From a virus, in the IMG/VR virus record IMGVR_UViG_3300048592_000055, positions 1 through 21,946 of that record: a stretch of DNA of 21,946 bases; one strand, written 5' to 3'. The notes beneath the pieces were generated by a model. The model was given only the letters and a program-made list of their open reading frames with translations, did not search any database and was not told the origin of the DNA. Position 1 is the first letter of the stretch, and each line of letters opens with the position of its first letter. This document shows, in pieces, positions 1 through 16,439 of this stretch. The position numbers were made by a program, and so were the translations under genes.

Positions 1-241
1 CGTTAGCACTCTCTACCTTGGCCCAACAGCACGCCTTGAATCTGTCGCCCCAATACACCGTGACGTGTTTCTTAGGGAAGCGCACGCCCATAAACATATC
101 GCAGTCTTGGCAATCGCCCTTGTATTGCGCCTTCGGTGGTTCGTCCAAAGGGCAATCCGCCTTATCGGCTGTAGCCTTCCCGCGCCCCCACACCGAAACC
201 GTTATGTTCGGTGCCCACTTGCTGAAATCTTTTGCAACCAT
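1..241 (-). CDS. Cysteine-rich small protein, partial at its C-terminus
   Basis: Open frame of 80 codons without a stop, running off the left edge. The start at 241 is set by a strong Shine-Dalgarno (GGAGG) five bases before ATG. The protein begins MVAKDFSKWAPNITVSVWG and has several cysteines (a CQDC pair near residue 45 and a CC pair near residue 73), suggesting metal binding. I do not recognise the family. It is the next gene leftward after attC-like site 260-329, so it reads as cargo of the same cassette-like array. Plus-strand frames over the same bases lack ribosome sites and look like shadows. Confidence 0.6.
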   Translation of the reverse strand, partial: MVAKDFSKWAPNITVSVWGRGKATADKADCPLDEPPKAQYKGDCQDCDMFMGVRFPKKHVTVYWGDRFKACCWAKVESAN

Positions 242-259
242 GCCGTCCTCCAAGTCGAG

Positions 260-329
260 TTCTAACCTTCCGGTGCAGGGGAGCCGTGCAAGCTACGCTT
301 GCCCGTCCCCCTGACCTTGCACGTTAGGT
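260..329 (+). other. attC-like integron recombination site 1
   Basis: Core-like boxes TTCTAAC (1L, 260-266) and GTTAGGT (1R, 323-329) flank a second pair, 2L GGTGCAG and 2R CTGACC. 2L carries one extra base (G) relative to 2R, as in classical attC sites. The centre folds as GGGGA/TCCCC followed by GCAAGC-TAC-GCTTGC. By the extra-base rule the site polarity is left to right, opposite to the genes around it. The 3' end of the Mom-like gene lies inside this site, with its stop at 293. Confidence 0.8.
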
Positions 330-874
330 TTCAAATCCAGCTCCCACCGTATTTTGTCGCCGGGGGCTTGGTCTATTGCTCTTGTCCTTCTTGTTGTATT
401 GGAAAATCCGCCACTTTTCCTAGCTCCGGTACAAACCCACCCAGCAGCTTTATAGATCGTCCCTGAATGAACCTGTGGATCTTGGTAGCTAATCAATCTA
501 GGGCATTGCGGGAATTTTTTTCGTATATCTTTTACCATCCATCCAAGCATCCTTGTGGCCGTATTTTTTGGGGCATCATCACTAATAGCCATCCGCTTCA
601 ACTCTATCCAACTAGAGTCAATCATTGCGCTTGAAGGGTTTGACCATATGGCTATCGCAAAAAAAACACCCTGATATTCCGCGCCGTAACTGGCGAGGCA
701 TTGCGTCTGTGCATACCTTGGGAGCCTTGAATGCCACAAATCATTTAGTCCTTTGGCGACCTTCAAGGTTATTTGGCCGAAGTGAAGTTGGAGCGGCGAG
801 GTCGGAATCGAACCGCCTCCTTCCACTTGGAAAAGTGGATGTACTACCCGTATACAATCGCCGCGTGTGTTCAT
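293..874 (-). CDS. Mom-like GNAT-fold DNA modification protein
   Basis: From about residue 37 the protein resembles the phage Mom / XF1762-type family: a WHSRLP segment, an AIW strand, an ELKRMAIS strand, DAPKNTATRMLGWMV, then LISYQDPQVHSGTIYKAAGW, the hallmark C-terminal motif. Mu Mom converts adenine in phage DNA to a carbamoylmethyl form that resists host restriction. The same role here is inferred from family. The stop lies within attC-like site 1. The start is doubtful: residues 1-28 are the translation of a tRNA-like gene (789-864) and the homologous part begins directly after the tRNA CCA. ATG at 874 has only a weak AGG six bases upstream; TTG at 766 is an alternative start. Confidence 0.75.
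   Translation of the reverse strand: MNTRGDCIRVVHPLFQVEGGGSIPTSPLQLHFGQITLKVAKGLNDLWHSRLPRYAQTQCLASYGAEYQGVFFAIAIWSNPSSAMIDSSWIELKRMAISDDAPKNTATRMLGWMVKDIRKKFPQCPRLISYQDPQVHSGTIYKAAGWVCTGARKSGGFSNTTRRTRAIDQAPGDKIRWELDLKPNVQGQGDGQA
789..864 (-). tRNA. tRNA-Gly(TCC)-like gene with enlarged anticodon loop
   Basis: Read on the minus strand: 7-bp acceptor stem GCGGCGA/TCGCCGC with encoded discriminator U and CCA, D arm GTAT...GTAC with GGG in the loop, anticodon stem TCCAC/GTGGA, T loop TTCGATT. Overall it resembles bacterial tRNA-Gly(UCC). Two irregularities are visible. The anticodon loop is TTTTCCAA, eight bases instead of seven. The 3' side of the T stem has six bases (CCGACC), so the stem needs a bulged A or a mismatch. 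It may be a frameshifting tRNA, a decaying tRNA or a tRNA-like RNA. It sits between attC-like site 2 and the Mom-like domain. Confidence 0.7.
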
Positions 875-879
875 TTGAA

Positions 880-943
880 ACCTAACTCGTCGGTCAACAC
901 GGACGCGCCAAAAGCGGCGCGCCGGTTACCTAGATCGTTGGGC
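880..943 (+). other. attC-like integron recombination site 2
   Basis: 1L ACCTAAC (880-886) and 1R GTTGGGC (937-943) both fit the RYYYAAC/GTTRRRY consensus. Inside are GGTCAACAC and GGTTACC, which pair with an extrahelical C at the same position as in the classical aadA attC (GTTCAAGC/GCTTAAC). The centre is a perfect stem, CGCGCC-AAAAGC-GGCGCG. Polarity by the extra base is left to right. The stop of the 59-aa gene lies two bases from 1R. Confidence 0.85.
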
Positions 944-944
944 C

Positions 945-1124
945 TCACGGGTCTATCCAGTTGCCCGGCTTCTTATCACCGCGTCGCTTTACCGTTTGCC
1001 GGAACCCGCACCACTTACACCAAAGTTGCGTGTCGCCTTCTGGGTAAATAGGCGGGGCGTAGTGCCAGTTGAAACGGTGCGCAAGACGCATCGTCCACAT
1101 GTAAAGCAATCCTCGAATGCTCAT
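945..1124 (-). CDS. 59-aa zinc-ribbon-like cassette protein
   Basis: ATG at 1124 is preceded by a near-perfect Shine-Dalgarno (AGGAGG, four bases upstream). The frame encodes 59 residues starting MSIRGLLYMWTMRLAHRFNW and containing a CKWCGFRQTVKRR segment, a CxxC knuckle followed by basic residues, then ending in NWIDP. Function is unknown; a small nucleic-acid or protein binding role is plausible. The start overlaps the stop of the upstream 99-aa gene as ATGA, so translation is probably coupled. The stop is beside 1R of attC-like site 2. Confidence 0.75.
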   Translation of the reverse strand: MSIRGLLYMWTMRLAHRFNWHYAPPIYPEGDTQLWCKWCGFRQTVKRRGDKKPGNWIDP

Positions 1125-1420
1125 GTTTCCTCCTGTGCGCCAGGCCCAACCCGGCGTTCCAGCGGAGCCTCCGGCGATAATGCTGCCGGAGTCCCGCTGA
1201 ACTCCACGTTGGGCGTCAGGATCGTAATAGCTGGAGCTTCCTCGACTATGGCTATTAATGTTTTCTCTACGTCATCACGAATCCACAGAATTTCTTCCCA
1301 TACTTCTTCCATTGTCTCGGCAGCGAATCTGTATTCGGCGCGGTCAATTTCAGTTGTTTTCACCCCGTCGACTTTCCGTGTTTTACCGTCTCGCTCTATG
1401 ATTACACGAAATACTTTCAT
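1121..1420 (-). CDS. 99-aa cassette protein of unknown function
   Basis: Begins MKVFRVIIERDGKTRKVDG, with an acidic helical middle (AETMEEVWEEILWIRDDVEK). The region looks like a small alpha/beta protein. I do not recognise the family. ATG at 1420 has a purine-rich AGAGG site upstream and lies 17 bases beyond attC-like site 4. The last ~30 residues (from TPNVEFSG onward) are a translation of attC-like site 3, and the stop overlaps the next start as ATGA. The native C-terminus may therefore have been replaced when this piece of DNA was joined to its neighbour. Confidence 0.7.
   Translation of the reverse strand: MKVFRVIIERDGKTRKVDGVKTTEIDRAEYRFAAETMEEVWEEILWIRDDVEKTLIAIVEEAPAITILTPNVEFSGTPAALSPEAPLERRVGPGAQEET
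1144..1214 (+). other. attC-like integron recombination site 3
   Basis: Textbook form: 1L GCCCAAC (1144-1150) is perfectly complementary to 1R GTTGGGC (1208-1214). 2L GTTCCAG pairs with 2R CTGAAC, leaving one extra C in 2L. A central stem CTCCGGC/GCCGGAG closes a short loop. The five-base spacer between 1L and 2L is also typical. Polarity is left to right. The 99-aa gene reads straight through it in the other direction. Confidence 0.92.
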
Positions 1421-1436
1421 ATCTCATCCTCTCTAC

Positions 1437-1507
1437 GCCCAACCGGGCGTTCCAGAGGGACGCTACGCGGCGATGCCGCTTCGCGCCCCTGAACTTCGAC
1501 GTTAGTA
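1437..1507 (+). other. attC-like integron recombination site 4
   Basis: 1L GCCCAAC (1437-1443), 2L GTTCCAG, 2R CTGAAC and a degenerate 1R GTTAGTA (1501-1507), with a central GCGGC-GAT-GCCGC stem. 2L has the extra C, as in site 3, and the 1L-2L stretch is nearly the same as in site 3. Polarity is left to right. The Cro-like gene's stop codon lies inside 1R, so this is the junction between phage control genes and the cassette-like array. Confidence 0.88.
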
Positions 1508-1687
1508 ATAATCCTTGTCAATCTTCAGCTTCCCGCCAGTAATAACGAAAAGCTGAAACTGCCGCAACTCAGGTACGCCATCTCTGCGCCAGTTGTCCAT
1601 GATCTGCCGGTAGATACCGTATTGAGCCAACGCAGTCATAGCCTCGCGCTGGCCCCCGTAGTGTTTGATGATGTCGTCGTGTGTCAT
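1502..1687 (-). CDS. Cro-like transcriptional repressor
   Basis: A 61-residue protein starting MTHDDIIKHYGGQREAMTAL. The helix-turn-helix lies at about residues 13-35 (GGQREAMTALAQYGI turn YRQIMDNWRRDG). The C-terminal VPELRQFQLFVITGGKLKIDK matches the usual ending of small Cro/YdaS-type phage repressors. It should bind operators in the divergent region 1690-1800 and control early transcription. No Shine-Dalgarno precedes ATG 1687. Instead a -10-like box ends six bases upstream, so the message is probably leaderless. Longer starts (1705, 1747) would place the promoter within the gene. Cassette-like genes follow downstream in the same direction. Confidence 0.8.
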   Translation of the reverse strand: MTHDDIIKHYGGQREAMTALAQYGIYRQIMDNWRRDGVPELRQFQLFVITGGKLKIDKDYY

Positions 1688-1722
1688 GTAGCAATTTAAG
1701 CACATCACAAAACTATTTGCAA
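1688..1722 (-). promoter_or_regulatory. Putative leaderless promoter of the Cro-like gene
   Basis: On the minus strand, TTGCAA (1717-1722) and TTAAAT (1694-1699) are separated by exactly 17 bases. Transcription would start at or within a base or two of the ATG at 1687, which explains the missing ribosome site. Both boxes are only 4/6 matches, so this is a moderate call. Leaderless repressor messages are known, for example lambda cI from PRM. Confidence 0.5.
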
Positions 1723-1729
1723 GGCTTGC
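1719..1729. promoter_or_regulatory. Putative operator dyad
   Basis: The perfect inverted repeat GCAAG-G-CTTGC overlaps the putative -35 box of the Cro-like gene. Further TTGC half-site-like words recur rightward (TTGCGTAA near 1727, TTGCGGTA near 1754). This is the expected place for Cro/repressor operators. The assignment rests on position and symmetry only. Confidence 0.45.
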
Positions 1730-1740
1730 GTAAAAAATTC

Positions 1741-1769
1741 TTGACATTTATTTTGCGGTATGCCATTCT
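1741..1769 (+). promoter_or_regulatory. Putative rightward early promoter
   Basis: A consensus -35 box, TTGACA, lies at 1741-1746, about 55 bases before the first plus-strand gene. The best -10 at 17 bases is CATTCT, a poor match, so activity may need a regulator or the -10 may be misplaced. It faces away from the Cro-like gene, giving the usual divergent phage control layout. Confidence 0.45.
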
Positions 1770-4238: not shown

Positions 4239-4390
4239 GCTGCGAACGTGATGCCGGACATTACATTGCTGAGACTGGCGAGTTTGTCTGCGATGGCTGC
4301 TACGACCCGCTGACGGATGCTGATCGGGAGTGGGATAACTACTCGAACGAGAGCATACAAGACATAATCGAGGGCGATGGGAATGGCTGA
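4205..4390 (+). CDS. Cysteine-rich early protein (61 aa)
   Basis: ATG 4205 follows AGGAGA by six bases. Sequence opens MPKCRSCGCTIGCERDAGHY and later has a CDGC pair, so four or more cysteines plus a histidine could bind zinc. The C-terminal third is strongly acidic. It resembles small phage or bacterial zinc-ribbon proteins but no family can be named. The 3' end overlaps the start of the methyltransferase gene by eight bases. Confidence 0.6.
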   Translation: MPKCRSCGCTIGCERDAGHYIAETGEFVCDGCYDPLTDADREWDNYSNESIQDIIEGDGNG

Positions 4391-5114
4391 GAAAGTGACA
4401 ATCGGGAATTGCGAACTGTGGCACGGCGACTGCCGCGAGATACTGCCGCTGCTGCCGCCCGTCGATCTGGTTCTGACCGACCCGCCGTATGGGATACGCG
4501 CAGACGAGAACCCCGTTCGTGGAAAGTGGGGGGGGGGGGTTGTGGATAACGCTATTGCTTGGGACAGGAAGCGTCCAGACCCGGACGAGATTACTCTAGT
4601 TGTTCGCTCTGGACGTGATGCAATTGTATGGGGCGGGAACTACTTTGCCGACTTACTGCCGCCGTCTCAGGGGTGGTTGGTGTGGGACAAGATAACGCGC
4701 AACTTTAGTCTTGCCGACTGCGAATTGGCGTGGTCGACGTTTGATCGTGCAAGCCGCGTTTTATCAAAACCACGGACGCCAGATTTTGACAAATCACACC
4801 CGACGCAAAAGCCACTTTACCTGATGGAGTGGTGCCTTTCGCTAGTACCAAAGGCGAAGTCAGTGCTTGATGCCTACATGGGCAGCGGAACGACCGGCGT
4901 TGCCTGCGCCCGGATGGGTTTGCAGTTCGTCGGCATCGAGCGTGAGCGCAAATACTTTGACATCGCCTGCCGCCGAATAGAGCAAGCCTACGCACAGCCA
5001 CGGCTGTTTGAGGACAAACAGCCAGCGCCAAAGGAACCGCAGCAGTCATTGCTAGACTCGTATGAGCAGACCGACCGTGACGCACCGCTAACTGATATAG
5101 GAGAGGTGGAATGA
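4383..5114 (+). CDS. DNA methyltransferase (N6_N4_Mtase family, beta-type order)
   Basis: 243 residues from ATG 4383 (GAGGG eight bases upstream; ATG 4377 is an alternative). The catalytic motif DPPYG is near residue 34, and the SAM-binding motif comes late as DAYMGSGTTGVACARMG followed by GIERERKYFDIACRRIE. HPTQKP precedes it. This DPPY-first order is that of beta-class amino-methyltransferases; DPPY points to adenine N6 as the likely target. It probably protects phage DNA or acts in regulation. No cognate nuclease is seen. A run of 12 G (4528-4539) codes for glycines in the middle of the gene and may make it phase variable. The first 59 bases are repeated at 5965-6023. Confidence 0.88.
   Translation: MAEKVTIGNCELWHGDCREILPLLPPVDLVLTDPPYGIRADENPVRGKWGGGVVDNAIAWDRKRPDPDEITLVVRSGRDAIVWGGNYFADLLPPSQGWLVWDKITRNFSLADCELAWSTFDRASRVLSKPRTPDFDKSHPTQKPLYLMEWCLSLVPKAKSVLDAYMGSGTTGVACARMGLQFVGIERERKYFDIACRRIEQAYAQPRLFEDKQPAPKEPQQSLLDSYEQTDRDAPLTDIGEVE
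4528..4539 (+). repeat. Poly-G tract (12 G) inside the methyltransferase gene
   Basis: Twelve consecutive G in a coding region, read as Trp-Gly-Gly-Gly-Val. One added or lost base would shift the frame after about 50 residues, before the SAM-binding motif. Such tracts are typical contingency sites for slipped-strand phase variation. They are also typical sites of sequencing error, although the frame is intact here. Confidence 0.9.
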
Positions 5115-5370: not shown

Positions 5371-5621
5371 CGCCACTACAACTAAGCATCCTTATCCACT
5401 ACTACGGCCACGCAGAGGATTACCGCTTTGGTGACTTCTCCGCGCCAGCAGTACGCGAAGCAATCGACTGGTTTAATGGTGATGCAGACCTGCTAGAACA
5501 CGACTTTAGTGGTTATCAGAAAGCAGTCTATAAGCTAACCGAAAAGGGAAAGTTCTTCGTTGAACACCTCTGTTCGGTTCCTCTTCCAGTTCCTAAACAC
5601 TCTTGGATGATCCCTAAATGA
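5367..5621 (+). CDS. Conserved phage protein of unknown function (84 aa)
   Basis: Starts MTPLQLSILIHYYGHAEDYR and has GDFSAPAVREAIDWF, YKLTEKGKFFVEHLCSVPLP. This pattern is familiar from small conserved proteins of many proteobacterial phages, and the second half looks like a winged-helix strand (LTEKG). A DNA-binding role is a guess. It is linked by ATGA overlaps to both neighbours. Confidence 0.65.
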   Translation: MTPLQLSILIHYYGHAEDYRFGDFSAPAVREAIDWFNGDADLLEHDFSGYQKAVYKLTEKGKFFVEHLCSVPLPVPKHSWMIPK

Positions 5622-5875
5622 CCGGCCTACCCCTAATAGTCTCCCTCTCCGTCCTGAACGGCATCCTAGTGGCTACGAACCTGTCCAGCCTGTTGCACGA
5701 CGCTGATCTGCGCCAGATGGCAGCCGTGTCCGAAGCCAATCTGCGCCAAGCCGAGCGCAAGTGGATGGCGTGCCATGAAAGCGGCGTCTATACCGTTGGC
5801 ACGGACATCTATTTGAGCAAGGTTAGGAAAAGCGAGATGACTACGGCACAGGTTTATGAGGCGCATGGGTTGTAA
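5618..5875 (+). CDS. Membrane-anchored early protein, paralogue 1 (85 aa)
   Basis: Begins MTGLPLIVSLSVLNGILVAT, a likely N-terminal membrane anchor, followed by a helical stretch (EANLRQAERKWMACHESGVY) and a short beta-like domain. Paralogous to the protein at 6313-6570: ERKWMACHESG is identical in both and the first codons match closely. The stop codon lies inside the fifth attC-like site. Function unknown. Confidence 0.7.
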   Translation: MTGLPLIVSLSVLNGILVATNLSSLLHDADLRQMAAVSEANLRQAERKWMACHESGVYTVGTDIYLSKVRKSEMTTAQVYEAHGL

Positions 5876-5939
5876 CGCATAGCTAAGGGGCGCGACGCGG
5901 CCTTATCGCGGCGCGTCCCGCTTGAGCGACGGGTTGGCA
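5870..5939 (-). other. attC-like recombination site 5 in the early operon
   Basis: Read on the minus strand: 1L TGCCAAC (5933-5939), spacer CCGTC, 2L GCTCAAGC, a GC-rich stem with GACGCG/CGCGTC around 5894-5917, 2R CTTAGC, and 1R GTTACAA (5870-5876). 2L again has an extra C relative to 2R (GCT-C-AAG against GCT-AAG). 1L/1R pair only through AAC/GTT, so it is more degenerate than sites 1-4. The polarity is right to left, again opposite to the adjacent gene, whose stop lies in 1R. Confidence 0.7.
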
Positions 5940-5964
5940 GGCAAAACGTAACTACGGAGTGATG

Positions 5965-6061
5965 ATGGCTGAGAAAGTGACAATCGGGAATTGCGAACTG
6001 TGGCACGGCGACTGCCGCGAGATTTTGCCGACGCTGCTGCCGCTTGGCAACACCAAGCGGA
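5965..6061 (+). pseudogene. Truncated duplicate of the methyltransferase 5' end
   Basis: Bases 5965-6023 are identical to 4383-4441, the first 59 bases of the methyltransferase gene. Similarity then fades through a GCTGCTGCCG stretch to about 6045, and the frame runs on into unrelated sequence until 6183. Only the first ~20 residues are methyltransferase, without DPPY or SAM motifs, so it cannot be an enzyme. It starts 25 bases after attC-like site 5 and probably marks a recombination junction. Confidence 0.85.
6040..6060 (+). repeat. Perfect hairpin at the end of the methyltransferase fragment
   Basis: CCGCTTGG-CAACA-CCAAGCGG, an 8-bp perfect stem with a five-base loop, followed by a second small CTGCA-CACA-TGCAG stem. 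No T tract follows, so it is not a clear terminator. It sits where similarity to the methyltransferase gene ends and may be a recombination remnant. Confidence 0.5.
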
Positions 6062-6107: not shown

Positions 6108-6311
6108 ATGCGCTTTATTTCCAAGGAACTCGGTCGTCAGGAATGTTACGGCGACTCAGATGAAGGTGTTGAGGACACGCTAAAGGGCTGGATACACAAA
6201 TGCCTCGATCAGTATTGGCGATTCCGTGCAATTGATGGAATGATGCTCACGCACAAGGACTGTCGGCAAATTGCCGAGCAACTTTCCGCGTTGAATACAA
6301 GAGAGGGGTGA
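6108..6311 (+). CDS. Small early protein (67 aa)
   Basis: ATG 6108 follows AAGGAG by seven bases, a strong ribosome site. The protein opens MRFISKELGRQECYGDSDEG and has a helical, tryptophan-containing middle (LKGWIHKCLDQYWRF). Not recognised. It lies between the methyltransferase fragment and paralogue 2, in the segment apparently inserted or duplicated with attC-like site 5. Confidence 0.6.
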   Translation: MRFISKELGRQECYGDSDEGVEDTLKGWIHKCLDQYWRFRAIDGMMLTHKDCRQIAEQLSALNTREG

Positions 6312-6312
6312 A

Positions 6313-6570
6313 ATGACCGGCCTACCCATAATCGTAACCCTCGCCGTCCTGAATGGCGTCATCGCAGCCGTCAATCTGGCCGGGATCGTCCATGCAGCCG
6401 ACTTGCGGAAACAATCCGCAATCGCAGAGGCCAATTTGGCACAGGCCGAGCGGAAATGGATGGCGTGTCATGAAAGCGGCATCTATACCGTGGGCGAGGA
6501 CGTGTATGTGGCGCGGGTTAAAAAGAGTGCGCTTAATGTGCGCGAGTTGCCGGAAGTGAGGGGTTTGTGA
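6313..6570 (+). CDS. Membrane-anchored early protein, paralogue 2 (85 aa)
   Basis: Begins MTGLPIIVTLAVLNGVIAAV, an N-terminal membrane anchor, then EANLAQAERKWMACHESGIY. Same length as and closely similar to the protein at 5618-5875, so the two arose by duplication and have since diverged at many positions. The gene follows the previous stop by one base, without ATGA coupling. Function unknown; the shared ERKWMACHESG core is the likely functional part. Confidence 0.7.
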   Translation: MTGLPIIVTLAVLNGVIAAVNLAGIVHAADLRKQSAIAEANLAQAERKWMACHESGIYTVGEDVYVARVKKSALNVRELPEVRGL

Positions 6571-6713
6571 CAGATGCAGCCAAACAATTGCTATGGCTAA
6601 TTGATACCGCCTTGATCCATCTATCGCTTCAAAGCGGTATCAACATCACTTTGTCATCCGTTGGCTTCGCTCTCGGAGCCGTCTTTGTAGCATTTCAAAT
6701 TCTTCAGGAGTGA
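6567..6713 (+). CDS. Possible membrane microprotein (48 aa)
   Basis: GTG 6567 overlaps the previous stop as GTGA, the coupling used throughout this operon. The 48-residue frame (TDAAKQLLWLIDTALIHLSL at positions 2-21) is mostly hydrophobic, with a second apolar stretch near its end, so it could be a small membrane protein. It overlaps the convergent gene 6646-6999 by 68 bases and spans a long hairpin, which lowers confidence. Confidence 0.35.
   Translation: MTDAAKQLLWLIDTALIHLSLQSGINITLSSVGFALGAVFVAFQILQE
6601..6643. terminator. Possible terminator hairpin between converging operons
   Basis: Perfect 10-bp inverted repeat TTGATACCGC / GCGGTATCAA with a 23-base loop, lying three bases beyond the stop of the leftward operon and inside the end of the rightward operon. 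No strong T tract follows on either strand. Position favours a bidirectional stop; the long loop is a weakness. Confidence 0.4.
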
Positions 6714-6999
6714 CATATCTCCCGTCAGGTGTCTGTACCGTTGCCCTCGGGTTGGGTGGCGATGAATAGTTCCCCGGCCCCGGCGCTACAGGCGGTGCAA
6801 CAGGACGCGGCCCGTATAACTCTGGATCGTTCTCGATGATCTGCTTCTGCATACCAGCTTTCGGAGCTTGGGCGAGCATCAATAGGCCATTCGGATTTTG
6901 TTGCGGCGCATTATTGTAAAGAGCCTCGGACAGCAGCCCCATCATGGGGTTGTCCTGCTGTGCGCCTTGGTAGTACATCAAATCCGATAGCCTGTTCAT
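6646..6999 (-). CDS. Last gene of the late operon, unknown function (117 aa)
   Basis: ATG 6999 follows AAAGGAGG by five bases, a strong site; the upstream frame to 7020 is not needed. The protein opens MNRLSDLMYYQGAQQDNPMM, is rich in Gln, Asn, Met and Pro, with a proline-rich middle (PRPVAPPVAPGPG) and a charged C-terminal helix (PEEFEMLQRRLRER). Low-complexity composition suggests a virion-associated or flexible protein. No family recognised. Confidence 0.65.
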   Translation of the reverse strand: MNRLSDLMYYQGAQQDNPMMGLLSEALYNNAPQQNPNGLLMLAQAPKAGMQKQIIENDPELYGPRPVAPPVAPGPGNYSSPPNPRATVQTPDGRYVTPEEFEMLQRRLRERSQRMTK

Positions 7000-7034
7000 G
7001 TTGCCTCCTTTGCGTGCCAATACCTAGCCGAATC

Positions 7035-7106
7035 GTGCCAATAATCGGTAGGGCGGGCTGCTTCAACAGCCAGGATTTCCCGACCTACGGCACGGTTCCT
7101 TTTTTT
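7035..7106 (+). terminator. Structured intergenic element with T tract (rightward terminator candidate)
   Basis: Nested stems: GTGCC (7035-7039) and GTAGG (7048-7052) pair with the continuous CCTACGGCAC (7084-7093), enclosing GGCTG-CTTCAA-CAGCC (7056-7071). On the plus strand a run of seven T follows at 7100-7106. It could stop rightward readthrough from the early operon into the antisense of the late genes. In the leftward message it forms a structured leader 36 bases upstream of the last gene. Confidence 0.45.
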
Positions 7107-7110
7107 CGCC

Positions 7111-8067
7111 CTAAACCTTAACTATTCCACCCCTGAATTCCATGTGGTCATTGTCGTACTTTAGCACCATTTCAGGCATCAGCAGCTTCCCATCTTTGAA
7201 GGTAAGTACGATAAATCCGCTCCTCCACGACACGGGGTTTATCTCGGTATAATCTTGGAATTGTGGGCCGTATGGTTCTGCTAATGTCCCGCAGTCGATG
7301 CCCCACCTTGTCCCGTTGTAATCGCTCCAAGGGACAACCTTTAAGCTATGCAGGTGTCCAGTTACTATACTTTTCCCACTTTGTATAACATTGTTATGCG
7401 GCGCATGGATACCGCCCTTGAACCGATGTTTCACCACCACGTCATTGTTAATCATAGCCATCCATGCCGGAGTCCAGCGCGGGAAGTGATCCTTCAAATG
7501 CACCCCGCTAACCTTGGCAAACTCCGGCGCACAGGACGCCAGCTTCGTTTCCAGCCGCCCGTCGTGATTGCCTAGCGTCCAAATGAAAGCGGCCCCTTTT
7601 GGAGCCGCTTGTACGATTTCCTCTAGTCTGTCCTGGCAGGTTTCTATCTCCTGAATGACGGACGGGCGACTTTCCCACCCGATAGGAGGGAATCGGGAAA
7701 TGGTCGCAAAGTCGCAAACATCCCCGTTCATAATGACTACTTTCGGCTTCAACCCGTCACAGAAATGGACGAAACCGCGATGCGCCGTGGTAATTATATT
7801 CGGCCAGTAATGCGCGTCGCTGCCGATCAGGACGATGCCATCCTTGATTTCAAGCTGCTTTACTGACGGATGGTTGTCTAGCTGCTCGTGGATGGTGTTT
7901 CTGATGCCTCCGGCCTTTAGCTCGACGCCTAGCTTTGCCTCTATGTTGCGACGCCGCAGATAGACTTGGCGCACATCACAGTTGAACTTCTTGGCGATCA
8001 GCGTTGGTGATTTAAGCTCCTGAAACGCGCCGATCAACTCGTCGTCCGTGAATTTCTGAGCCGCCAT
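7111..8067 (-). CDS. Calcineurin-like metallophosphoesterase
   Basis: 318 residues. Residues 1-50 look like a helix-turn-helix (FTDDELIGAFQELKSPTLIA...CDVRQVYLRRRN). The rest has the metallophosphatase signature in order: GSDAHYWPN (DxH type), MNGDVCDF (GDxxD), LGNHDGR (GNHD) and VTGHLHSLK (GHxH). Such enzymes use two metal ions to cleave phosphoesters, here perhaps DNA or nucleotides. Similar HTH-phosphoesterase fusions occur in phages; the substrate is unknown. Start by GAGGAG before ATG 8067. It lies at the end of the late operon near lysis genes. Confidence 0.85.
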   Translation of the reverse strand: MAAQKFTDDELIGAFQELKSPTLIAKKFNCDVRQVYLRRRNIEAKLGVELKAGGIRNTIHEQLDNHPSVKQLEIKDGIVLIGSDAHYWPNIITTAHRGFVHFCDGLKPKVVIMNGDVCDFATISRFPPIGWESRPSVIQEIETCQDRLEEIVQAAPKGAAFIWTLGNHDGRLETKLASCAPEFAKVSGVHLKDHFPRWTPAWMAMINNDVVVKHRFKGGIHAPHNNVIQSGKSIVTGHLHSLKVVPWSDYNGTRWGIDCGTLAEPYGPQFQDYTEINPVSWRSGFIVLTFKDGKLLMPEMVLKYDNDHMEFRGGIVKV

Positions 8068-8085
8068 GTAGTCTCCTCTGGATTG

Positions 8086-8373
8086 TTATGCTTCGTCGTT
8101 CCCAAGCTCAACCACCATGATCCCCGAAATGATCCCTCCGCATCGTGGATTGCCGCACTCTATCTCACCATCATCGTAGAGGTAGAATATTGCGCTGCCG
8201 CATTCTGAACACTCGTAGCAATTCACCTGTTCCGTCTTTTCCGGCTTTTTCGTTGCAATTTTGACTACGTTCGTACTAATATCGACAACGCCAATGTCGG
8301 GGTCTTCCGGCTGATCTATCGGGTACGCTTCTGGCGTCGCCATCGGGCCGCGTGGGAAGTCGACTATTGGCAT
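8086..8373 (-). CDS. Zinc-ribbon late protein (95 aa)
   Basis: Starts MPIVDFPRGPMATPEAYPID after AGGAGA. The N-terminal half is disordered and acidic. The C-terminal half has CYECSECGSAIFY and CGNPRCGG, a four-or-more-cysteine zinc ribbon. Function unknown; a regulatory or nucleic-acid contact is plausible. It lies between endolysin and phosphoesterase genes. Confidence 0.7.
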   Translation of the reverse strand: MPIVDFPRGPMATPEAYPIDQPEDPDIGVVDISTNVVKIATKKPEKTEQVNCYECSECGSAIFYLYDDGEIECGNPRCGGIISGIMVVELGNDEA

Positions 8374-8382
8374 GATCGTCTC

Positions 8383-8907
8383 CTATTCTCCAATCACCTG
8401 CAAAGCCTTCTGGTAGTATTTCCACCGCTCATGCCAGCCGTTCGTCCCGCCGTTGATCCTCTTGGTTATCCGCAGGAAGTCGTGCTTGTCGGCCAACTCA
8501 TTGCATCCGTGTGATTGCCAGAACCATGCTGCGCTGCGGCAAGCATTTACAGGCTCCTCTAGCAACTCAGGACAGGCTATCAGGTCTAGGCCAAGGGCTT
8601 CCCCACATGCCTCGTAATTAGCCCGTCCTGTAAGCTGTATCAGCCCCCTGCCCTTGTATTTGACGCCATCCCCGTTGTAGAGGTTTCCTAGGTCGTCCCG
8701 GCCCTCGTAGGCTTCCCCTGTAGCCAATTCCTCGACATACCTCAGTTCCCCGCTCTCATGGGCGATCTGAGCCAAAAACGCCGCCTCCCTGATGCCGTTC
8801 TCTGATATATCAAATTCCTTCATGGCTGCATTAAGCGGCTCTATGAACTTGTCTGCTCTTTGCTTGGCATAGGGCATGATGCGAATAAGCTGATCGTAGG
8901 CAATCAC
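8383..8907 (-). CDS. Endolysin, GH19 chitinase-like muramidase
   Basis: 174 residues. Glycoside hydrolase 19 features: FLAQIAHESGELRYVEE with the catalytic glutamate, a loop with GDGVKYKGRGLIQLTGRANY, then ACRSAAWFWQSHGCNELAD and a final ITKRINGGTNGWHERWKYY. GH19 phage enzymes cleave the glycan backbone of peptidoglycan for host lysis. GTG 8907 is preferred: AGGAG lies eight bases before it and it overlaps the previous stop as GTGA, whereas ATG 8913 is only two bases from AGGAG. No signal peptide, so export depends on the holin encoded two genes upstream. Confidence 0.88.
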   Translation of the reverse strand: MIAYDQLIRIMPYAKQRADKFIEPLNAAMKEFDISENGIREAAFLAQIAHESGELRYVEELATGEAYEGRDDLGNLYNGDGVKYKGRGLIQLTGRANYEACGEALGLDLIACPELLEEPVNACRSAAWFWQSHGCNELADKHDFLRITKRINGGTNGWHERWKYYQKALQVIGE

Positions 8908-12634: not shown

Positions 12635-13821
12635 TTCACTCTCATCCACGATTCAGGCTTCGACGGATCGCCGCCCTTATAAACGTACCCGTCCTCCATC
12701 CCGCCTACTTTCGGTGCAGCAGATTGCGGTTGCGGCTTATTCCCTCCACCCACAGCAGGAATGTTAAGCACGCTCAATGCTGATTCCATTTCAGGAGTCC
12801 AAGCGTTAGCAGCCCGCACCTTCGCGGCCTCAATCAGTCCCTTCATGCGTTCATTCTTGGCATTGACGGCTTCAGGCTCGTCCGTGAAGTTAGGCAGATA
12901 CGATGCCCGTTGTTGCGCCAATTGTTCCTTGTTGTAAGCCGCGCCGGTAGCCAAGTACAGCAGCGAGTCGATAATGTCAGCTTGAGACTGATTGACAATT
13001 TGCCTGTTCTTGTCCCGCGCCAAGTTTTTCAATCCCTCTTGAGCTGAATCCCACATCGGTGTTACTCCAGCCGCCGCCTCAAGGAATCCTGGGGCCATAG
13101 CCGCAGTCCCACCTTTGCCTTCCGTGGTCTTTTGGATCATCTTTGCAGATTCCAAGATGCGACCCACGTTGTAGGCCGTCTTGCGCTCATCCTCTGTTGG
13201 CTTCTTCTGGAATCCTCCTACAGGCACCGCTTGACCTTGCGGATTTGTTTGCGAAGGCGGATACACCCATTGACCTTCAACCAGCTTCGGCTCCGGCATT
13301 GCATTGGCTTCCCTATTCGCCTTCCGCGCCTCACCCACCGCCTTCTCGTACTGCGCCTTCTTCATCATCGCAGGATTCAGATAATCCGGCGTCTCGATCT
13401 CGCGCACGATCTTGGACGATTGCCGCCCGAAGCCGTCAAGCGCGGGGGCTTCCTTGATAACCTCAATCGTCCCGTCAGCCAGTTGCTTGCGCGACAACAC
13501 ACGCGGCCCATCCACCCACGGATCGGACTTGACGCGGCGACCATCAGGCGCGACACCGCTACCACCCGGCGCAGCATAGCCAAGGTCAATCGTCCGGCCT
13601 GAACTCGACCGGATCGTGTTTAGCCGCTGCTCCTGCGGTGCGGCAAACTGTACGCCCGGATCGCCACCCATAGCGTTGTCGGCCTGCATCGCCGCGAGTT
13701 GCTCCTGATTCAGCAGGTCTGACAGGCGTCTGCTATTGGTATTGCCGCGCAAGGTCTGCGTGGAAAGCCAAGCGTTAAGCTCGTCCTCTGTCGGGTTGAT
13801 TACGGGGTCAAGGTAGCTCAT
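12631..13821 (-). CDS. Putative internal virion / DNA transfer protein (396 aa)
   Basis: Starts MSYLDPVINPTEDELNAWL. N-terminal ~150 residues are loop-rich, then helical stretches (KKAQYEKAVGEARKANREAN), and a conserved-looking segment IIDSLLYLATGAAYNKEQL through ASYLPNFTDEPEAVNAKNER, typical of phage DNA-transfer proteins. C-terminal end is a flexible tail ending SWMRVK. It is the second of three adjacent genes for likely ejection proteins. Exact family not certain. Confidence 0.65.
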   Translation of the reverse strand: MSYLDPVINPTEDELNAWLSTQTLRGNTNSRRLSDLLNQEQLAAMQADNAMGGDPGVQFAAPQEQRLNTIRSSSGRTIDLGYAAPGGSGVAPDGRRVKSDPWVDGPRVLSRKQLADGTIEVIKEAPALDGFGRQSSKIVREIETPDYLNPAMMKKAQYEKAVGEARKANREANAMPEPKLVEGQWVYPPSQTNPQGQAVPVGGFQKKPTEDERKTAYNVGRILESAKMIQKTTEGKGGTAAMAPGFLEAAAGVTPMWDSAQEGLKNLARDKNRQIVNQSQADIIDSLLYLATGAAYNKEQLAQQRASYLPNFTDEPEAVNAKNERMKGLIEAAKVRAANAWTPEMESALSVLNIPAVGGGNKPQPQSAAPKVGGMEDGYVYKGGDPSKPESWMRVK

Positions 13822-13824
13822 GGT

Positions 13825-14388
13825 TTAGTCCCACCTAGTAACAATTGCGCCCGGTACGTTATGCACTCCGGGTGCCATGTAACGCTTGTTCATCTCCATC
13901 GCAGAAAGCGCCATTTGCATGTTCTGCGCCCGAGCGTCGTTTTCCAGCTTCTTCTGAGCAAGTTGCCGCTGGAACTCGGCCTCGTATTCCTGAGAAGCCA
14001 TGCCTTGACCATACTTGGTTAGCTCTGCCAAGCGGTTTCCTGAACCGAGCATCCCTCTGGCCGCAGCGGTACGATTCACCGCCTCAAGCCCTTGGTTATA
14101 TCGCCATTGATATGAAGGCGACTGTTCGATATTCGCCAGATTCGACAAGGTTCCGCCGCTCGTCCCGCTATTGGCATTTAACGATTTCATCCAATAGTTC
14201 GGGTCGGACATGCGTTGCTGGTTCGCCCACTCAATATCTTCCCGTTTCTGGCCTTGAAGTGAAGCTTGGTTAGCCATTGAGTTAGCCTGCTGCCATCCGG
14301 CATCGCTGCCCCAATACTGAGAAGCGGGGGTATATACCCTATCACGAAGGTATGCTTGAACTTCCGGGCTATAGTCATTTGTCGCCAT
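13825..14388 (-). CDS. Putative DNA ejection / internal virion protein (187 aa)
   Basis: Starts MATNDYSPEVQAYLRDRVYT after AGGAGG, overlapping the gp10-like gene by 14 bases. Core segment with QSPSYQWRYNQGLEAVNRTA followed by RGMLGSGNRLAELTKYGQGM and ASQEYEAEFQRQLAQKK is a pattern found in short phage DNA-transfer proteins. It is probably packed inside the capsid and leaves with the genome. The helical second half could oligomerise. Confidence 0.65.
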   Translation of the reverse strand: MATNDYSPEVQAYLRDRVYTPASQYWGSDAGWQQANSMANQASLQGQKREDIEWANQQRMSDPNYWMKSLNANSGTSGGTLSNLANIEQSPSYQWRYNQGLEAVNRTAAARGMLGSGNRLAELTKYGQGMASQEYEAEFQRQLAQKKLENDARAQNMQMALSAMEMNKRYMAPGVHNVPGAIVTRWD

Positions 14389-15739
14389 TGTTGCCTCCTG
14401 CGTCTAGGTCAATTGATTTCAGTCTCAACCTCGTACTATCTGTGTATCTTAGCTCAAATGCACGCTTCACGAAATTTCCAAGTCTGCGATACTTTGGCCG
14501 TTTTACGTCAAGCGATGTTTTCCTGTAGTTCGTGTACGTCTGGTAGTCATCGTCCGTATGCCGAATCAGCAAACTACCAGCAACCTTATCTGCAACAACC
14601 GCCAACTCTCCCGCGAATTTCATGCCAGAATTGCCGTTGCTAAAGTTGCTAGTCCTCACCTTAACGTCAATGTATTGCCCATCATCGTCAAGGAACGTCG
14701 AATCAAAGTGGTACACCTTGCCGTTCGTTTCATGCAGCAAGTAGTTGTTTCCGCCAGATGCCGTGAAATAGATGAACGGGAAATACGTTTCAGTCGTTAC
14801 TGTCGCCGTGATCGTTCCTGTTGCTGGCGTTGATAGTGCGCTATCAACCGGATAAGTGAATGTGTTCGCGTCAACCTTGGTGATATTGAACGTCCCGTTG
14901 TATCCGGAAGGCGTCGCTCCGGCAATGGTCGTAACGTCTCCATCTGATAGCCCATGCGATGTTTTAGTGGCCGTAGCGGTTCCGCTTGATTGAGTCAGGC
15001 TTGTCAGCGTAATTGACGCCGCAGCAGCACGGTATGTCCATTGCGACCAAATCTTCGTAGCCAAGTCAAAGACAAGCGTAAGATTCTCGTCCTTTAGCGT
15101 CAGGATATACAGCGGATGCCCGTCGATTCTGAGGCCATACGCATACACGTTCGTTAGCGTTGCCGCACCCAAAATGCGTTGCACATCAGCATTCGCAACC
15201 TCAACCGGAGACAAGCTTTCAGGCGCAAAGTAATGCACGCTGCGGCCCTCTGATTTGCTGCGTGATATAAAGATGATGCCGCCGTCTATCTTTGCAACGC
15301 TGCGGCCATGAGCGCATCCAACCTGAATTGCCGTATTCCCGTAAGGTGAAAGTGGTGACCCGGTAGCGTTTGCCGCGTCGTAGAAAAGTTCGGTCGTGTA
15401 GTCCTTCAGCGCAACGATGTAGTTTTGGTGCTTGGATATTGCTACGCCTGAGTCTGATTCTGATTCAGCCGTAATGTAGTTAAGCGCGTTCCAGCTTGTC
15501 GGGTCTTCAAGGTCTGAGTTGTAGATAATCCCGTCAGCGTCCATAACGAAGAAGTAGCCGTCAAGGTACTCTACTCCCGGAACAGTAGGGTCTGGATAGT
15601 CCGCGTCGGTAATCTTTGTCAGTACACCAGCGTCGAACACATAGGCGTCCCGCGTGGATTTCATGACGAATCCAGCCGCGCCCGAAGCCGTATTGGCTTT
15701 GACGAAATCGAACGGTAATCCTGCTACTGTAACGGCCAT
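14375..15739 (-). CDS. P22 gp10-like tail accessory factor, main (C-terminal) part
   Basis: 454 residues with the propeller-like pattern of packaged-DNA stabilisation proteins: AYVFDAGVLTKITDADYPDP, TVPGVEYLDGYFFVMDADG, IYNSDLEDPTSWNALNYITA, FFYDAANATGSPLSP, GCAHGRSVAKI. Residues ~243-315 hold an inserted beta-sandwich (TATKTSHGLSDGDVTTIAGA). It seals the portal under the tail. The usual N-terminal module (SRDGTL...KRPG) is missing here and occurs in the two upstream genes. The start follows the previous stop by one base, without a ribosome site, so translation probably depends on reinitiation or coupling. Confidence 0.78.
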   Translation of the reverse strand: MAVTVAGLPFDFVKANTASGAAGFVMKSTRDAYVFDAGVLTKITDADYPDPTVPGVEYLDGYFFVMDADGIIYNSDLEDPTSWNALNYITAESESDSGVAISKHQNYIVALKDYTTELFYDAANATGSPLSPYGNTAIQVGCAHGRSVAKIDGGIIFISRSKSEGRSVHYFAPESLSPVEVANADVQRILGAATLTNVYAYGLRIDGHPLYILTLKDENLTLVFDLATKIWSQWTYRAAAASITLTSLTQSSGTATATKTSHGLSDGDVTTIAGATPSGYNGTFNITKVDANTFTYPVDSALSTPATGTITATVTTETYFPFIYFTASGGNNYLLHETNGKVYHFDSTFLDDDGQYIDVKVRTSNFSNGNSGMKFAGELAVVADKVAGSLLIRHTDDDYQTYTNYRKTSLDVKRPKYRRLGNFVKRAFELRYTDSTRLRLKSIDLDAGGNNGDK

Positions 15740-15740
15740 T

Positions 15741-16439
15741 TTATATAGTAACTACATATCCAATTGCTGTTCCACCTTGATTCGTTGACGAGCTACAGTT
15801 CCCATTAAATTGAGTAGTGTTTATATTGTCACCGAATCCTTGTCTTATCCCAATGTACACTTGCCAATTATTAAACCTATCCCTTGCATCGCAGGCATTA
15901 TATGGGTAGATAATCCATGCTGCATATGATGCCGCATCCTTTGTAGAACATATAGCCCCAAATGACCCGTTATAACTCAAATAGCCTTTGTATCTAGCTA
16001 CTCCAGGTTCATTTTCATCCCATACATCGGTTGTTGTTGCATTCCCTATATTCCCGTCCATTTGGCTATATAGTTTTTGCCCATTATGTATTACAGCATC
16101 CCCAATGTCGTAAGTAGTACCAGCGTCGTAATCCTGCGTCATGCTTTCATTGAAATACGTTCCGCCACCGCCGCCGTACATTGTTCCTCCACCGACATAT
16201 ACCCAAAACCCAAGTACATCCCCAAACATCATGAATAGGTAGCCGTCGTAGTTGAACAGCCCTTGCCCGTAGATGTCGTTACCTGAGATAACGGCATCGC
16301 CCTCGTCTATCCCAGCACGCTTGATAACGAGCGTGGTTTTGTTTTCCTCGTCCTCCTCACCAAAGCAATTAACCATCCGTTCGTCTTTATCGACGGTTCC
16401 ATCGCGTGAGGCCAACGGGGTTATGATATGGTGTCTCAT
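15741..16439 (-). CDS. gp10-like N-terminal module with unique C-terminal domain (232 aa)
   Basis: Residues 1-85 (MRHHIITPLASRDGTVDKDE, later TLVIKRAGIDEGD and GQGLFNYDGYLFMMFGD) match the N-terminal module of gp10-like tail proteins. The rest is different: Gly/Tyr/Asn-rich (YGGGGGTYF), with YDIGDAVIHNGQKLYSQM, a carbohydrate-binding-like or fibre-like repeat, and four or more cysteines. Base composition of this second half is more AT-rich than neighbouring genes, suggesting transfer. Coupled to the gene before by ATGA. It may be a split or duplicated tail hub piece or a separate tail-tip protein. Confidence 0.65.
   Translation of the reverse strand: MRHHIITPLASRDGTVDKDERMVNCFGEEDEENKTTLVIKRAGIDEGDAVISGNDIYGQGLFNYDGYLFMMFGDVLGFWVYVGGGTMYGGGGGTYFNESMTQDYDAGTTYDIGDAVIHNGQKLYSQMDGNIGNATTTDVWDENEPGVARYKGYLSYNGSFGAICSTKDAASYAAWIIYPYNACDARDRFNNWQVYIGIRQGFGDNINTTQFNGNCSSSTNQGGTAIGYVVTI

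Follow-up and report, generated by a model that had tools for sequence, protein, structure and literature searches.

An integron-type attC cassette array in the early operons of a P22-like phage, with cassettes probably exchanged by a host integrase

The phage genome fragment analysed here carries a true integron cassette array in its early operons, with no integrase of its own; the cassettes are probably swapped by the integron integrase (IntI) of the host. Integrons are a gene-capture device of bacteria. As judged from the sequences, the phage array and those of related phages combine true attC sites, cassette units, records devoid of an integrase, attI sites in relatives, precise junctions between close relatives, and genes inverted relative to their attC.

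The window, that is, the whole stretch of DNA analysed, is a complete IMG/VR virus record of 21,946 bases and represents a linear fragment of a P22-like phage. Its encoded proteins include a P22-like capsid, a P22_Cro-like protein, a DNA methylase and proteins resembling RecT and Gam. No match was obtained between the window DNA and named phages or plasmids. Near position 1750 two operons diverge: the leftward one, on the - strand, comprises the Cro-like gene and the left-array genes, and the rightward one, on the + strand, is the RecT operon. The Cro-like gene has its stop codon inside the 1R box (GTTAGTA) of attC site 4, and the partial gene at the left end of the record is probably a further cassette. 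The coordinates are listed in Table 1.

Table 1. Array features of the window (attC scores are those of covariance model R1)
Feature	Position	Strand	Description
Partial gene left of site 1	2..253	-	open frame only; truncated by the record end; starts beside attC site 1
attC site 1	260..329	+	46.6 bits, E 2e-10; 1L TTCTAAC, 1R GTTAGGT (323-329); cut after 323; extra base in 2L
Cassette A	324..937	-	Mom-like gene (about 293-736) and tRNA-like sequence (793-864), antisense to attC; 14-bp inverted repeat at ends
attC site 2	880..943	+	47.6 bits, E 9e-11; 1L ACCTAAC, complement of 1R of site 1; cut after 937
Cassette B	938..1208	-	59-aa gene (945-1124) supported by a ribosome-binding site and its codon score; antisense to attC; boxes 7/7
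attC site 3	1144..1214	+	60.0 bits, E 5e-14; cut after 1208
Cassette C	1209..1501	-	99-aa gene 1121-1420, antisense to attC, running through attC site 3; boxes 7/7
attC site 4	1437..1507	+	46.5 bits, E 2e-10; last of array; 1R GTTAGTA; cut after 1501
Cro-like gene	1502..1747	-	P22_Cro 1.5e-9; promoter side of left array
attC site 5, inverted	5870..5939 with full boxes	-	36.4 bits, E 8e-8 over 5873-5936; in rightward operon
DNA methylase gene-start copy, truncated	5959..6041	+	adjoins attC site 5; 94% identical over 77 nt to paralogue

Bacterial loci around integron integrases (80 in total) served as the training source, and a pattern scanner gave 96 attC matches on their array strand versus 4 on the other. 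Covariance model R1 was built from 42 aligned attC sites adjoining intI genes, taken from bacterial genomes only. All 145 R1 matches in about 1.06 Mb of intI-bearing loci fell on the array strand, and none was obtained in 0.85 Mb of phage relatives (80 loci found via the window capsid). In the window, sites 1-4 were all recovered on the + strand at 46-60 bits, and site 5 was found in addition; the next-best match after it reached 14 bits and was the reverse of site 3. Thus the covariance-model check proposed in an earlier note on this DNA gave scores far above background, and the coordinates and boxes of the four attC elements described there were right. On this evidence the four sites are genuine. 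Sites 4 and 5 were missed by the initial pattern scanner because their outer 1L/1R boxes fit the pattern poorly.

The window sites display the attC architecture, namely 1L, 2L, 2R and 1R boxes, an extra base in 2L and a foldable bottom strand. Compared with shuffled sequences, the bottom-strand fold was clearly better for site 1 (z -4.3), site 3 (z -7.2) and site 4 (z -2.9) and modestly so for site 2 (z -2.0) and site 5 (z -1.2). With four sites in 1.25 kb and no intI, the cluster is a CALIN (at least two nearby attC sites, no intI). Site 3 has near-identical counterparts in a Sulfuritalea integron (L124:8086-8156) and in phage G008, and the core of site 5 matches the attC of a methylase cassette in phage G007 (18714-18782). 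The truncated methylase copy beside site 5 has a full-length paralogue at 4377-5114 (N6_N4_Mtase). A paralogous pair of 85-aa genes (5618-5875 and 6313-6570, DNA 70-76% identical) brackets site 5 and this copy, which suggests an insertion or duplication in the rightward operon.

Among 80 RecT relatives of the window, two phages with arrays were found (L002 and L003). Further array phages were collected by a search with the gene beside the L003 array, and searches with the Gam and primase genes yielded L300, L301, L305, L308 and L309; the window Cro-like gene as query returned no relative. The related metagenomic phages have 2-13 attC sites each. The nearest named phage by capsid is MW202573 (65.6% identity), whose closed circular genome (34,630 bases) has four attC sites. 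The window record matched neither TIGR02249 nor PF00589, and no integron integrase was found in G000-G005. A PF00589 tyrosine recombinase was likewise absent from the records searched, including the closed MW202573, so that the intI gene of a complete integron was seen neither in the window record nor in its relatives. The claim of the earlier note that a phage holds a cassette cluster without its own integrase is supported. In G006 (L254), two near-identical attC sites within one array (32445-32512 and 34054-34121) are a sign of cassette duplication or of a common attC on different cassettes.

An integrase-inserted cassette begins with bases complementing the 1L of its own attC, as these closed the circle. 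We refer to this relation between neighbouring boxes as the R'/R'' rule. In the window, 1R is the complement of the next 1L in 3/3 units. Over the window and seven related phages the rule held perfectly in 27 of 43 neighbouring pairs, against 3.3 expected and a maximum of 10 in 10,000 box shuffles, while the boxes inside a single linear attC matched in 3/54 cases only. Since the boxes obey the rule, the units are cassettes A to C of Table 1, exactly the borders proposed earlier. Extended inverted repeats at cassette ends were considered as a special feature and discarded, being equally common in bacterial arrays.

The Mom-like gene of cassette A was recognised by Pfam (Mom, 1e-15) and PHROG (Mom-like, 3e-21). 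The tRNA-like sequence on its - strand has a perfect 7-bp acceptor stem, scored 26.6 bits in Rfam, under the 29-bit cut-off, and was not among ARAGORN calls, which included no tRNA in the window. The cassette C gene had a codon score of 11.5 vs -3.9; neither it nor the cassette B gene matched a Pfam or PHROG family. Thus the Cro-like, Mom-like and tRNA-like labels given previously hold, the last with the reservation just stated, while the zinc ribbon label corresponds to no Pfam or PHROG family. Over all phages, the recognised cassette genes encode Mom, three N6_N4 methylases, MT-A70, Dam, RNA ligase, GNAT, ASCH and HD domains, and most others belong to no family; no known resistance gene was seen among the identified ones. 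The functional theme of the phage cassettes is DNA modification, as likewise noted by Qi et al. 2023 (PMC9892861).

The phage cassettes differ from bacterial ones in the direction of their genes. Orientation by longest open reading frame was too noisy (27 antisense, 16 sense) and was replaced by codon-use scoring, by which the gene was antisense to attC in 28/28 clear cases of the first phage set and 9/9 in further phages (37/37). In bacterial arrays, by contrast, 29 of 31 genes were sense to attC (Fisher 8e-15 versus the first phage set). The sense orientation that is usual, though not absolute, for cassettes is therefore not seen in these phages. The window Mom-like gene is weak by codon use, and its Pfam match lies on the antisense strand; one exception is a cassette at L300:4825, which is sense in L300 and inverted in L301. 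G008 (L257) has two oppositely oriented arrays (6277-8849 and 12800-16348), one per divergent operon, with genes antisense to attC in both. Being antisense to attC, the genes are read from the phage promoter in the direction of attI, which argues against a Pc promoter reading from attI into the array. One idea is that, when transcription runs this way, the displaced strand may be the recombinogenic bottom strand.

The median distance from an attC to the start codon that follows it is 24 nt, and the stop codon falls inside the next attC in 23/40 cases. Tails of many cassette proteins (G002, G007, G008, and window 1121-1420) are encoded by the neighbouring attC, ending for example in ...PNV, ...NAEITGRASGPG or ...NVEFSGTPAA; hence movement of a cassette alters the protein end. 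The sites might be viewed as attC-like hairpins that the operon retains for its transcription, translation or RNA processing rather than for recombination, being intergenic, about 24 nt before start codons and often supplying the stop codon of the preceding gene. Such hairpins do not account for the conserved core boxes, the extra base in 2L and the box rule between sites, which together form a recombination signature, and we consider this reading very improbable.

An assembly chimera, in which a bacterial integron fragment has been joined to a phage contig, was suggested by the position of the array at the end of a metagenomic contig. However, many independent contigs and one closed circular genome share this architecture, the genes are antisense unlike those of bacterial arrays, the Cro-like gene ends within attC site 4, and Mom is a phage gene. 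We regard a chimera as extremely improbable and, in practice, already refuted.

The arrays of relatives begin at an attI-like site, and in several cases this site matches attI from chromosomal integrons, most of them betaproteobacterial. Seven phages have in common, with changes, ACCTTGCACGGTAGG...ACTTAACG/TT (the slash marks the cut) just before the same gene and exactly at the start of the first cassette. Bacterial attI sites were extracted beside intI via the box rule, and class 1 attI1 was recovered correctly as a control. With the resulting profile the phage site was the top-ranking GTT position in three phages, G001, G002 and G007 (1st of 710, 1175 and 883 positions); it ranked only 6th in G008 and 19th in G006, and the insertion site in L300/L301 does not conform to the profile. 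The attI core of G002, CTACTTAACG/TTAGCC, is identical to the attI beside intI in Thiobacillus and Hydrogenophilales loci. The bare 16-mer core occurred in 6 of 399 genomes of one order, as did its reversed control (6 genomes), and genome-wide counts are therefore uninformative; the four matches that were fetched all have the extended attI context, and two of them adjoin intI or an intI remnant. A search of IMG/VR with the phage attI-flank pattern returned seven contigs, of which five were already known, one has a possible decayed array and one is probably a chance match. The window record holds no array head, and its own attI would fall left of base 1.

Comparison of close phage pairs revealed that whole arrays or single cassettes differ and that most junctions are at the R-box cut point. 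G001 and G002 are 98% and 95% identical in the flanks and have different arrays (5 vs 11 attC sites); at one array end the identity stops at GTTTAA/C, at the opposite end it stops at attI. Three differences separate L300 from L301 (about 97% identical): a single cassette of about 350 bp and a unit of about 760 bp at an attI-like site, both with an AA/C junction, and an inverted cassette body between inverted R-box repeats. The pattern, with distal cassettes in common and a variable attI side, fits insertion at attI. The earlier note had named gene borders away from the G/TT points of 1R as a refutation; in related phages, genes changed at these points at both ends of the whole-array swap, at one inserted cassette and at one insertion exactly at an attI-like site; the comparison was made on other array phages, as our searches found no near-identical phage sharing the window's own array. 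The inverted body (L300:4285-4831, L301:4109-4655) lies beside an attC, carries an HD-domain gene and is bounded by the inverted R-box repeats GTTATGCAGCAC; its inversion could be a route by which a gene flips relative to its attC. Gene replacements without attC are also seen in these phages.

These junctions bear on two other explanations. The attC sites might act merely as short common sequences for homologous recombination by a RecT-like annealing protein, without IntI. The window does encode RecT-like and Gam-like proteins, and G012 and G002 have their last cassette in common and then diverge at the 1L end of the common attC, which is not a cut point. At the ends of the G001/G002 arrays and the L300 insertions, on the other hand, homology ends at the R-box cut and the remaining attC differs, while annealing within attC homology would scatter junctions through the site and does not predict the R'/R'' rule. 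We thus consider annealing unlikely. The second explanation is passive hitchhiking, with a single past capture of part of a host integron array, which is now decaying, and no cassette exchange in phages. It agrees with the lack of an integrase in the phages, with the truncated methylase copy beside site 5 and with the published capture of integron pieces by prophages (PMC9892861). The exact gain and loss described above already disfavours it. Moreover, several related phages have arrays at the same places, and the arrays of phages that are 95-98% identical differ wholly; the arrays obey the box rule, and the direction of their genes is the reverse of that in host arrays. Hitchhiking therefore appears even a little less likely than annealing.

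For exchange by the host integrase, the following course can be proposed. During infection, the integron integrase of the host would fold and cut the bottom strand of attC, and would insert or excise cassettes both between attC sites and at the attI of the phage. The phage would thereby gain a fast turnover of small early genes, several of them DNA-modifying. The acting enzyme is presumably a host IntI, and the hosts appear to be mainly Betaproteobacteria. We infer that the inverted genes reflect selection for read-out from the phage promoter, under which a cassette would have been retained only if its gene was inverted with respect to attC. The broader proposal, that the phage lineage has evolved an integrase-less integron with a host-imitating attI and a pool of inverted-gene cassettes, from which host IntI reshuffles counter-defence and other early genes under the phage promoter, has in our estimate an even chance of being correct.

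If these phages exchange early genes, many of them DNA-modifying, via a host enzyme, integrons also serve virus evolution, and phages would store and carry cassettes as a reservoir and vehicle in their own right. What sets cassette orientation can be tested directly on the inverted genes, and cassette turnover in a virus becomes measurable through the precise gain and loss seen between close relatives.

Phage attC clusters without an integrase have been known since 2023. Such CALIN were reported by Qi et al. 2023, including MW202573 from Manatee Spring (Figure 2D), and the phage attC sites tested there recombine with IntI1 and attI1 (PMC9892861). They resemble the window in having attC in phage genomes without intI. 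The main text of that paper does not discuss gene orientation relative to attC, an integrase-less phage attI common with host integrons, or gain and loss between near-identical phages, and the antisense orientation is not described in the published phage work that we found. The overall reading of the earlier note stands, and it missed three points, namely the antisense genes, the attI in relatives and the prior publication of phage attC clusters (PMC9892861). Phage TJE1, unlike the phages studied here, has the usual gene orientation at the one site examined. Mobile class 1 integrons have the same attC architecture and cassette rule as the phages; they differ in the attI1 core (CCCTAAAACAAAG/TT), encode IntI1, and most of the genes they carry confer resistance. 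The sedentary integrons of chromosomes, principally those of Betaproteobacteria (Sulfuritalea, Thiobacillus, Gallionella, Pseudoduganella), have attC sites near-identical to site 3 (L124) and to a G001 site (L157) and the attI core CTACTTAACG/TT as in G002, while, unlike in the phages, intI stands beside attI and the genes are sense to attC and point away from attI.
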